64,000 nucleotides of DNA. Source: an uncultured Clostridia bacterium. GTDB lineage: Bacteria; Bacillota; Clostridia; Christensenellales; Borkfalkiaceae. Shown piece after piece: positions 7,762-42,208 of the stretch. Each line of letters starts with the position of its first letter. Within the stretch, counting starts at the first letter, position 1. A program made the translations under genes and the position numbers. The stretch lies in assembly GCA_944367535.1 (NCBI GenBank), contig CALVWQ010000001.1, forward strand, positions 49,548 to 113,547, written 5' to 3'. Under the pieces are notes generated by a model that ran no database searches, was not told the origin of the DNA, and was given only the letters and a program-made list of their open reading frames with translations.

Positions 7762-8133
7762 ATGCCAACAATTCAACAGTTAATCAGACAGGGCAGAAAG
7801 AAGATAACTTACAAATCCAAGTCCCCCGCTTTGGACGAATGTCCGCAAAAGCGCGGCGTGTGTTTGTCGGTTACAACGACTACGCCCAAGAAACCTAACT
7901 CCGCGCTTCGTAAAATCGCGAGGGTGAGACTGACGAATAAGGCGGAAGGTATCGTATACATTCCGGGCGAAGGGCACAACTTGCAGGAACACCGTTCCGT
8001 GCTTATTCGCGGCGGCAGGGTCAAAGACCTGCCGGGCGTAAGATATCATATCATCCGCGGCGCGCTCGATACCGCAGGCGTTGCAAAACGCAGGCAGGCA
8101 AGGTCGAGATACGGCGCAAAACGTCCCAAATAA
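7762..8133 (+). CDS. rpsL: 30S ribosomal protein S12
   Basis: Decoding-centre protein of the small subunit, 123 aa. The start ATG at 7762 follows AAGGAGGT at 7749-7756. The family signature [19 protein letters not shown] and the loop [12 protein letters not shown] are intact. Both lysines commonly altered in streptomycin resistance are wild type, and the Asp in KDLPG is the conserved position methylthiolated by RimO where that enzyme exists. It is the first gene of the str cluster rpsL-rpsG-fusA, transcribed from its own promoter at 7615. Confidence 0.98.
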
Positions 8134-8191
8134 CAGCAAGACGTTTAGTTGCTCTTAATCTAAGAAATTGTAAGAATAATCAAACAAAAGC

Positions 8192-8328
8192 ACCTACTTA
8201 AAATCGGATATTCGGAAAATTAACCCGATTGGTAGGCAGTATGCTAAAAAGCAGAAGGTTCGCTACCCGAAAGGGCAAGTGATAGCCGTACTGAGGGGTT
8301 TACCCTTAAAAGCGCCGATTGACGGCGC
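8192..8328 (+). ncRNA. structured intercistronic RNA before rpsG (candidate r-protein leader)
   Basis: The 220-base rpsL-rpsG gap folds on inspection into adjoining helices. Helix 1 pairs CCTAC (8192-8196) with GTAGG (8232-8236), plus AATCGG (8202-8207) with CCGATT (8225-8230). Helix 2 starts on the next base, pairing CAGTATGCTA (8237-8246) with TAGCCGTACTG (8283-8293), and encloses a GNRA hairpin CCCGAAAGGG (8266-8275). Helix 3 (8294-8306) again starts on the next base. A GCGCCG/CGGCGC stem (8312-8328) sits about 10 bases before the AGAGGAGG Shine-Dalgarno. In E. coli the S12-S7 intercistronic region is the site where S7 regulates its own synthesis. An analogous role here is inference; I do not recognise a named family. 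Confidence 0.6.
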
Positions 8329-8353
8329 AAAAAAATCAGAGGAGGATTTAATC

Positions 8354-8824
8354 ATGCCGAGACGTGGCAATATAGCGAAAAGAGATGTTCTGCCCGATCC
8401 CGTATACAACGACAAAGTCGTAACCAAACTCATCAATCAGATTATGCTCGACGGGAAGAAGGGAATCGCGCAGGGAATCGTCTATGACGCATTTACTTCG
8501 GCCGCAGAAAAGGTCGGTCAGGAACCCAAGGAAATGTTCAATCAGGCACTCAACAACATCATGCCCATGGTTGAAGTCAAGGCGAGGAGAGTCGGCGGCG
8601 CAAACTATCAGGTGCCTATCGAAATCCGTGCCGAAAGAAGACAGACGCTTGCTATCCGTTGGCTTGTGGCTGCCGCGAGAAAGAGAGGTGAGCGTCTTAT
8701 GAGCGAAAGACTTTCAGCCGAACTCGTGGATGCTTTCAATAATACGGGCAACGCGGTAAAAAAGAAAGAAGATACTCACAGAATGGCGGAGGCAAACAAG
8801 GCGTTCGCTCATTACAGATTTTAA
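8354..8824 (+). CDS. rpsG: 30S ribosomal protein S7
   Basis: Primary 16S rRNA-binding protein that nucleates the small-subunit head, 156 aa, the usual length. I chose the ATG at 8354 ([20 protein letters not shown]) because it follows AGAGGAGG at 8338-8345. An in-frame start at 8279 would lie inside the structured leader and add residues absent from the family. The core ([26 protein letters not shown] and the C-terminal [21 protein letters not shown]) is canonical. It lies 14 bases before fusA. S7 is the usual translational repressor of this operon where regulation has been studied. Confidence 0.98.
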
Positions 8825-8838
8825 TTTGGAGATAAATT

Positions 8839-10908
8839 ATGCCGAGAGATTTTGATTTAAGCGTTACAAGAAACATAGGCATAATGGCGCATATCGACGC
8901 AGGTAAGACCACTACAACCGAGCGTATTCTTTTCTATACCGGAAAGACGCACAAACTCGGCGAGACTCATGAAGGCGAAGCTACCATGGACTGGATGGTG
9001 CAGGAGCAGGAGCGTGGTATTACAATAACCAGTGCGGCGACTACCTGTTATTGGAAAGGACACCGTATAAATATAATCGACACTCCCGGACACGTTGACT
9101 TTACAGTAGAAGTCGAGAGGTCGCTCCGAGTCCTTGACGGCGCCGTAGCTACTTTCTGCGCAAAGGGCGGCGTCGAACCTCAGAGCGAGACGGTGTGGCG
9201 TCAGGCGGACAAGTACAGAGTGCCGAGAATAGCGTACGTCAATAAAATGGATATAAACGGCGCGGATTTCAATAATGCCGTAAAGATGATGCACGAACGG
9301 CTTCATACTAATGCAATCCCCATACTGCTTCCGATAGGCAAAGAGGATACATTCAAGGGAGTTGTCGACGTCATCGAACGTAAAGCCGACCTGTATCTCG
9401 ACGACCTCGGTAAGGAAATTAAGGTTACGGACGTGCCTGACGACATGAAAGAGGAGTGCGACAGATACAGAGCACAGATAGTAGAACTTGCCGCCGAGCA
9501 GGACGACGCGCTCATGGAAAAATATTTCGAGAACGGCGACCTTTCGGTTGAGGATATAAAAAAGGGACTGCGTATGGCTACCCTTGCCATGAAAGTTACG
9601 CCCGTCCTCTGCGGTTCTTCATATAAGAATAAAGGCGTTCAGAATCTGCTCGACGCGGTAGTCGACTATCTTCCCAGTCCGCTCGATATAGGCGCGGTTG
9701 AAGGCGTGGATATGGACGGAAATCCGACCAAGAGAGAACCGTCCGATGACGAAGCGTTCTGCGGTCTCGCGTTCAAGATTATGACCGACCCGTTTGTCGG
9801 AAAACTCGCGTTTTTCCGTGCGTATTCGGGTGTCCTCAAAACCGGTTCTTATGTCTATAATTCCACAAAAGGAAAAAAAGAGAGAATCGCGAGAATCCTG
9901 CGCATGCACGCCAATCACAGAGAGGAAGTCGAAGCGGTTTATTCGGGTGAAATATGCGCGCTCGTGGGTCTTAAAGAAACTACGACCGGCGATACACTCT
10001 GTGCGGAGAACAGCCCGATAATACTTGAACAGATGGAATTCCCGGAGCCCGTTATAAGGGTCGCTATTGAGCCCAAGACCAAACAAGGTCAGGAAAAAAT
10101 GGGCTTTGCGCTCGCAAAACTCGCCGAAGAAGACCCCACGTTTAAGACCTATACCGATACCGAAACGGGTCAGACAATTATCGCCGGTATGGGTGAGCTT
10201 CACCTCGAAATCATCGTGGACAGGCTGCTCCGCGAATTCAGGGTCGAGGCCAATGTCGGTAAACCGCAGGTTGCTTATAAGGAAACCATACGTCAGGCTG
10301 TCGAGGCGGAAGGTATGTTCAAACGCCAGACGGGCGGACACGGCCAGTACGGTCATTGTAAGATTCGTCTTGAACCTCAGGAACCCGGTAAAGGTTACGA
10401 GTTTGTGGACGAAACGGTGGGCGGCTCCATTCCCAAGGAATTTATTCAGCCAATCAATAAAGGTATTCAGGAAGCGGCGAAGAACGGTATACTTGCAGGT
10501 TATGAAGTCGTGGATTTCAAGGTTACTGTTTACGACGGAAGTTATCATGACGTCGACTCTTCGGAAATGGCATTTAAGATAGCGGGAAGTATGGCGCTTA
10601 AAGACGGATTGCAGAAGGCAAAATCCGTATTGCTTGAACCGGTTATGAAAGTAGAAATACTTACGCCCGATGCTTATTTCGGAGACCTTATGGGTAACGT
10701 AACGGCGCGCCGCGGAATAATTCAGGGCACCGAGGACAGAAACGGAATAAAAGTCATAGACGCTCATATTCCGCTTGCCGAAATGTTCGGTTATGCAACA
10801 GACCTTCGTTCAAGAACACAGGGACGCGGTAACTATACCATGCAGTTCGACCATTACGCTGAAGTTCCAAAGTCGGTCGCTGAAAAGATAATAGGTAAAA
10901 AAGCGTAA
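8839..10908 (+). CDS. fusA: translation elongation factor G
   Basis: GTPase that drives ribosomal translocation and, with RRF, recycling; 689 aa. G-domain motifs are intact: AHIDAGKT (residues 17-24), the switch-[20 protein letters not shown] and the later GSSYKNKGV. Domain IV includes the HGQYGHCKI segment, and the end has the usual [12 protein letters not shown]. The ATG at 8839 has a GGAGA eight bases upstream. It is the third gene of the rpsL-rpsG-fusA transcript; tuf downstream has its own promoter, so EF-Tu level can be set separately. Nothing suggests the tetracycline-resistance paralogue. Confidence 0.98.
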
Positions 10909-42114: not shown

Positions 42115-42208
42115 AATAGAGTAGCAAAGACGCGTAAAGTGTTGCAGAATGGGATGTCGTTTGCAAACGAAAGGCGTGTGCCTGCGGTGTCTTTGCGCGT
42201 CCGCTATT
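42115..42208 (+). ncRNA. tetrahydrofolate riboswitch
   Basis: The sequence follows the THF riboswitch of Firmicutes folT genes closely. The closing helix is AATAG (42115-42119) with CTATT (42204-42208). The conserved internal stretches GAGTAG, AGTGTT...GAATGGGATGTCGT (about 42138-42160), AACGAAAGGCG, the GCGGTG after it and the final CGTCCGCT all occur in order, and the helix between CAAAGACGCG and its partner TGTCTTTG closes the core. Binding reduced folates would lower expression of the folate transporter downstream. The match is from memory of the family consensus, not from a covariance search. Confidence 0.88.

Follow-up and report, generated by a model that had tools for sequence, protein, structure and literature searches.

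The gap between rpsL and rpsG in the DNA analysed here (the window: 64,000 nucleotides (nt) from an uncultured Clostridia bacterium of the family Borkfalkiaceae, order Christensenellales; contig CALVWQ010000001.1) contains a conserved structured RNA at positions 8193-8328. This folded RNA is fixed in the rpsL-rpsG gap and is best read as a new class of ribosomal-protein (r-protein) leader. It is probably a cis-acting leader of the str operon, which S7 would bind when in excess, thereby lowering translation of rpsG and fusA. Control of the str operon by S7 is a textbook case known in detail only from E. coli; a well-defined RNA from a largely uncultured gut lineage makes two questions testable, namely whether S7 regulates itself in Firmicutes and whether unrelated RNA folds serve one r-protein.

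Covariation and fold of the rpsL-rpsG RNA

We gathered 133 distinct natural gap sequences and evaluated the helices (P1 to P6, Table 1) in an alignment of 56 sequences, 28 from the genus itself and 28 from other genera or families (A3). Standard pairs occupied 96.4% of pair cells, compared with 87.3% after shuffling; changes on both sides were seen in 21 of 33 pairs (shuffled mean 10.6) and in 149 cells (36.9 in shuffles), and none of 500 shuffles reached any of five covariation measures. When helix partners were slid out of register, pairing fell to 32-50% of cells. An alignment of 100 rows (A4) gave 24 pairs and 333 cells changed on both sides, with 0 of 500 shuffles as high; 82 of its 100 sources were picked by exact pattern, so that conservation within the pattern is by construction, two of its rows are chance opposite-strand matches, and two sources (L080, L163) were unmatched. 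Both alignments were fitted to the structure of R1, a covariance model made from 27 of the first-set sequences. As an independent check, RNAalifold was applied to a plain, structure-blind MAFFT alignment of 22 sequences, and returned P1, P3 and P4; of the 21 pairs in its result, 11 showed changes on both sides. A preliminary description of the same DNA had suggested building a covariance model from the gaps of relatives, and had named lack of covariation, or helices missing from closely related genomes that share the gene order, as grounds for abandoning the idea; the idea survived this check, the pairs of P4 varying on both sides in many relatives and the helices being retained.

At -48 kcal/mol and z = -3.05, a stability equalled by one of 200 dinucleotide shuffles, the structure of minimum energy predicted for 8180-8345 includes all four helices of the preliminary description. 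The second of these, described as a helix at 8237-8293 with a GNRA hairpin, is in fact a three-way junction at which P2, P3 and P4 meet. Conservation does not extend to its GNRA loop, as the loop of P4 can be as short as 3 nt (L022) and as long as 230 nt (L219). In the gap of L219 (genome G232), the 230-nt insertion holds repeat-like palindromes, and both P4 strands and the junction are retained. The unpaired strands of the junction are almost invariant: every one of the 56 rows of A3 has CAGUA and GAAG, and 55 have the longer GCAGUAU and AGAAG, L066 being the deviating sequence. These figures come from A3 because the sequences of A5 and A6 were excised with a pattern that demanded GCAGTA and GAAG.

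Support differs among the helices. In the 56 sequences, the two parts of P1 were paired in 98.5% and 98.2% of cells, and all four of its inner pairs that were counted varied on both sides; RNAalifold recovered the outer part and two inner pairs. P3 was paired in 100% of cells, with four of four pairs varying on both sides, and P5 in 91.3%, with five of five. In P4, both-side changes occurred in 7 of 11 pairs. The G-U pair already noted in the preliminary description is confirmed at G8262-U8280, where 38 of the 56 sequences have G-C and 17 have G-U, and the pair matching C8261-G8281 is replaced by U-A in 10 sequences and by G-C in one; the 'single bulge' reported for the same helix proved to be a conserved internal loop. 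An alternative P4 register, GCUA/UAGC, was rejected since the C-G to U-A changes at the equivalent of 8261-8281 fit UYGCU/AGYRA only. The proximal part of P4 is less certain than the rest, pair 8258-8286 being non-standard in 15 of 56 sequences. P6 appears in 26 of 27 own-genus gaps as a hairpin of at least four pairs and varying sequence, a count made without a shuffle control.

P2 is likely but unproven, because none of its pairs changed on both sides in A3 or A4 and RNAalifold recovered neither P2 nor P5; P2 was accordingly rejected as a covarying helix. In the 27 sequences of another family (f19) taken alone, P2 and P3 together were paired in 98.6% of cells versus 90.5% in shuffles, none of 500 shuffles being as high, and their covariation score likewise exceeded all 500. 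Only two P2 and P3 pairs changed on both sides in that set, a number that 490 of 500 shuffles reached.

Table 1. Positions in the window of the RNA element, its parts and the adjacent genes.
Feature	Positions	Strand	Detail or basis
P1	8193..8236 (8193-8198/8231-8236; 8203-8207/8225-8229)	+	CCUACU/GGUAGG; AUCGG/CCGAU; loop AUAUUCGGAAAAUUAAC
Three-way junction core	8237..8293	+	CAGUAU-P3-AGAAG-P4-AUAGC-GUAC; P2, P3 and P4 meet
P2	8239-8241/8289-8291	+	predicted fold; no both-side changes
P3 hairpin	8242..8253 (8242-8245/8250-8253)	+	UGCU-AAAA-AGCA; predicted fold, covariation
P4	8258..8286 (8258-8268/8273-8286)	+	UCGCU/AGUGA 8260-8264/8278-8282; distal CCC/GGG 8266-8268/8273-8275
P4, proximal part	8258-8259/8285-8286	+	GU/GC; less certain
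P4, conserved internal loop	A8265 opposite C8276-A8277	+	between UCGCU/AGUGA and distal CCC/GGG
P5	8294..8307 (8294-8298/8303-8307)	+	AGGGG-UUUA-CCCUU; predicted fold, covariation
P6, variable hairpin just 5' of the Shine-Dalgarno sequence	8312..8328 (8312-8317/8323-8328)	+	predicted fold
rpsG Shine-Dalgarno sequence	8340..8345	+	AGGAGG; direct reading of the sequence
rpsL (ribosomal protein S12), upstream of the element	7762..8133	+	NCBIfam TIGR00981, 217.6 bits
rpsG (ribosomal protein S7), presumed regulated gene and presumed ligand	8354..8824	+	NCBIfam TIGR01029, 226.3 bits
fusA (elongation factor G), presumed co-regulated	8839..10908	+	NCBIfam TIGR00484, 1139.3 bits

Occurrence in the family and a wider core

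The genes around the element run in the order rpoB, rpoC, rpsL, rpsG, fusA and, from about 11059, tuf (rpoB, rpoC and tuf assigned by eye from translations of open reading frames); the rpsL-rpsG gap is 220 nt long and ends at the rpsG ATG at 8354. When 61 genomes were searched at the DNA level, the element turned up in 27, all from the same genus (27 of its 37 members), and in none of 24 other families; the ten genomes of the genus without it show no rpsG in their assemblies either. Two genomes (G010, G032) each carry one element in two pieces. A third (G007) has two str loci with differing leaders on two contigs (L002 on C17, L028 on C15), which indicates either a mixed bin or a real duplication. 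R1, run on 396 genomes of the order, matched 32, once each, comprising 31 of 34 members of the family (in seven genera) and one of 362 others. The remaining three family genomes were positive with model R2 and laxer filters, which brings the element to 34 of the 34 family members sampled in the order.

Wherever both genes were present, the element lay between them: at 28 of 28 loci of the first set (two of which are the same place), at 32 of 32 of the second, and at 113 of 113 among the matches listed from a pattern scan of named collections. That scan gave at least 119 stretches, six of which hold just one of the two genes, and in 37 of which the element is identical to one from the genomes already searched. 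Among the matches listed, Candidatus Borkfalkia faecipullorum and Candidatus Gallimonas merdigallinarum carry the element, both at loci outside those 37; Borkfalkia belongs to Christensenellales in the NCBI placement. These locus sets, and the 26 loci of f19 described below, partly overlap. Gap length varied from 153 to 771 nt among the 32 second-set loci while the fold was retained.

A core, GCAGUAU-P3-AGAAG-P4-(A/G)GCUGUA, recurs in two further families, f19 and f29, having been spotted in the gaps of 24 genomes of other families and of one more from f29. Outside the family of the window, GCAGUAU-P3-AGAAG and (A/G)GCUGUA are kept and the sequences of P1 and P4 are altered. With filters off, the three best matches of R2 in 82,898 bases were all rpsL-rpsG gaps (L215, L192 and L201; E = 0.0028, 0.025 and 0.58); L215 had originally been brought in through R2 itself, and L192 and L201 through their rpsG. 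For L192 (family f9) the support is E = 0.025, and it was unmatched by R3, a core model. R3, whose 15 training rows include all three f29 genomes that it matched and one f19 genome, gave a single match in each of 63 of the 396 order genomes, namely in 33 of the 34 members of the window's family, 27 of f19 and three of f29. The family member that it missed (G396) was matched by R1. At the other 26 f19 loci the element always lay between rpsL and rpsG and always read GCAGUAUG-P3-CAGAAG. Family match counts are lower bounds because two f19 genomes missed by the model, those of L281 and L282, show the core by pattern. In a phylum sample of 398 genomes searched with strict filters at E <= 0.001, the window's own genome alone was matched, and none of the 397 others.

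Gaps of other families hold further short repeated strings. TCGGATG or TCGAATG stands shortly 3' of the rpsL stop in short gaps of several families, and in 17 of the 64 gaps sampled altogether (L196, L198, L200, L205, L210, L286, L288, L292, L297, L302, L303, L308, L310, L315, L319, L281 and L282), as against a mean of 0.7 and a maximum of 5 in 1000 shuffles. It may be an older, minimal element, since in L281 and L282 the string falls within the P1 region of the longer leader. GGAACG occurs in eight of the 64 gaps (L207, L211, L284, L295, L299, L305, L307, L312) and ATGCTGA in seven (L193, L208, L287, L289, L299, L307, L309); the long gaps of families f4, f13, f17 and f23 that contain one or both seem to represent one or two additional, distinct leader classes.

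Proposed control by S7 and its alternatives

S7 is the likely ligand because it is encoded directly downstream and because S7 controls the str operon from the same gap in E. coli; S12, being encoded upstream, seems the less likely of the two. The effect is presumably repression, and would be exerted on translation since no terminator was found: a terminator-like hairpin followed by a run of at least five T separates leader and rpsG in just 1 of 131 gaps, and transcription attenuation was rejected on this ground. In the mechanism we propose, S7 beyond what 16S rRNA takes up would be free for mRNA and would bind the RNA of P1 and the three-way junction, and the bound leader would then support less translation of rpsG and of fusA downstream. 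The switching step could be blocked ribosome entry, broken coupling between rpsL and rpsG, or destabilization of the mRNA, and the data do not choose among them. From the end of P4 to the rpsG start is 36 to 622 nt (median 70; 131 gaps), a variable distance that fits coupling interference or an effect on mRNA stability better than direct occlusion. Palindromic repeats of the TCACGGAAATTT...AAATTTCGTGAAC type stand between leader and rpsG in L048, L085, L152 and L170, with rpsG up to 622 nt away.

The Shine-Dalgarno sequence itself, AGGAGGA, did not vary across 27 own-genus sequences. Its sequestration by CCUACUU of P1 was considered and rejected, as changes in P1 track its own partner strand (e.g., CCUAAUU/AAUUAGG in L061). 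A leader peptide was also rejected: the genus has an AUG after a Shine-Dalgarno-like GUAGG (AGUAUG), but changes in hairpin length shift the frame and other genera have AUU, as judged by eye.

P4 also bears some resemblance to 16S rRNA. In the family it reads mostly UYGCUA/CAAGYRAU, and when this motif was compared with every pairable place in E. coli rRNA (17,161 in 16S and 60,781 in 23S, 77,942 in all), the top score, 19.4 of a possible 25.1, fell at 16S 936-943/1341-1346. By the helix boundaries adopted for the test, this place is helix 29, which belongs to the S7 region. When the motif was permuted, an S7-region helix scored highest in 5 of 2000 trials; the likeness is suggestive. It is conceivable, though we hold it to be rather doubtful, that the elements form an S7 leader superclass of Christensenellales whose three-way junction mimics the S7 region of 16S rRNA in circular permutation, with P4 corresponding to helix 29, P2 to helix 30 and P3 to helix 42. 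If so, S7 autoregulatory RNAs would no longer be confined to E. coli and a likely case in cyanobacteria, and one core would exist in several lineage variants. Short-pattern scans for mimicry of other rRNA parts gave scattered matches without clear pattern, and this line was dropped.

Several observations tell against S7 control through this RNA. Averaged over 126 gaps, the probability that the Shine-Dalgarno sequence is unpaired is 0.55, and it exceeds 0.5 in 70 of them; no common pairing partner was found among the 60 of these gaps inspected, so that no switch at this site is apparent and sequestration by P1 or P5 (CCUUAAA) was rejected as well. In 14 of 131 gaps, 146-622 nt separate the end of P4 from the start of rpsG, a distance ill-suited to simple steric blocking. 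The likeness to helix 29 was spotted before its test, and a score as high occurs somewhere in 575 of the 2000 motif permutations; in a partial 16S sequence of the genus (from another genome, L036, as none was found in the window's own assembly), helix 29 differs and ranks only 12th of 14,505 places, and the helix-29-like sequence of P4 is not retained in f19 and f29. Finally, the P4 motif finds no match in the E. coli gap, which is 96 nt long and predicted to fold differently.

Among the alternatives, an r-protein leader whose ligand is S12 or an elongation factor (EF) of the same operon, EF-G or EF-Tu, appears unlikely. These are the operon's other products, and P4 with its flank (AGAAG...GGCAAGCG) loosely resembles E. 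coli 16S rRNA near helix 18, a region of S12 and S4, where CAGAAGA stands at 492 and CAAGCGTT at 545. This resemblance is visual only, however, and exact CAGAAGR is absent from the partial 16S sequence of the genus; the S12 gene lies upstream of the element, and neither EF-G nor EF-Tu is known to be the ligand of a leader. The regulator of the E. coli str operon is S7 and not S12 according to a 2024 review (PMC10931766).

The compact junction and its almost invariant loop sequences are also what a riboswitch would show, and one responding to a small molecule or ion could control the supply of translation factors. Riboswitch classes usually precede several metabolic genes, whereas a single gene context at all loci examined and a single match per matched genome in the model scans indicate an operon-specific regulator rather than a metabolite riboswitch, a reading we consider very improbable. 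The RNA might also act without a dedicated ligand, as a coupling bridge, a structural spacer or a site of RNase processing, by making the long gap more compact, shielding the ends of the mRNA or easing the passage of ribosomes from rpsL to rpsG. Such a role would account for the retention of the fold at such different gap lengths and for a Shine-Dalgarno sequence that has no common partner. It is nevertheless quite improbable, as the almost invariant unpaired CAGUA, GAAG and UAGC imply recognition beyond compaction, and many families of the order do without the element, 38 of 64 gaps sampled outside the window's family being shorter than 70 nt. That an AT-rich gap folds in this way by chance agrees with the single-sequence z of only -3.05 but is hardly credible, being refuted by the covariation that no shuffle matched, by the loss of pairing when partners were slid and by the helices recovered from the structure-blind alignment. 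Repression by S7 through the P1 and junction RNA stands as the preferred reading.

Relation to known leaders

In line with r-protein leaders generally, the element has a structure backed by covariation and always precedes an r-protein gene that shares its strand. No Rfam 15 family reached its gathering threshold over the element in the window (best sub-threshold score, 16.2 bits), and Rfam gave no match in 20 representative loci of four families. The sole Rfam match at or above gathering score in the window is a tetrahydrofolate (THF) riboswitch at 42115-42208 on the plus strand (79.9 bits). By title or abstract, no published report of an rpsL-rpsG leader in Clostridia was found, in a search whose coverage mostly excluded subscription journals.

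Eckert and Weinberg 2020 (PMC7247131) list 20 leaders of the same kind, for example the Clostridia S4 leader, which are lineage-specific, covariation-supported and followed by an r-protein gene. Table 1 of that study, which does not cover 35 older supplementary leaders, has none of the 20 for S7 or S12 and none regulating rpsG or rpsL. Together with the Rfam result, this favors the new r-protein leader class, for S7 or S12, that the preliminary description had advanced, with S7 the more plausible ligand.

The rpsL-leaders of other bacteria and the Pelagibacter rpsL motif are str-operon leaders too, and the Pelagibacter motif is likewise a three-stem junction (PMC2704228). The rpsL-leaders are described either 5' of rpsL or between rpsG and fusA (PMC2965389, PMC2704228) and were originally found as transcription attenuators with terminators (PMC2965389), whereas the Clostridia element lies in the rpsL-rpsG gap and is almost never followed by a terminator-like hairpin.

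For S7 itself, the 2024 review (PMC10931766) describes control of the str operon as likely in a similar cyanobacterial case and as unstudied in other phyla, and the structure of the E. coli site as not obviously conserved elsewhere. The cyanobacterial rpsL-rpsG element (Meng 1989, cited in PMC10931766), for which structural likeness to the S7 region of 16S rRNA was reported, occupies the same place in another phylum. In E. coli, S7, a primary 16S binder, represses the str mRNA via the rpsL-rpsG intercistronic region (PMC10931766), and that site shares with the Clostridia element its gap, its neighbors and, presumably, its ligand and its regulated genes, rpsG and fusA.
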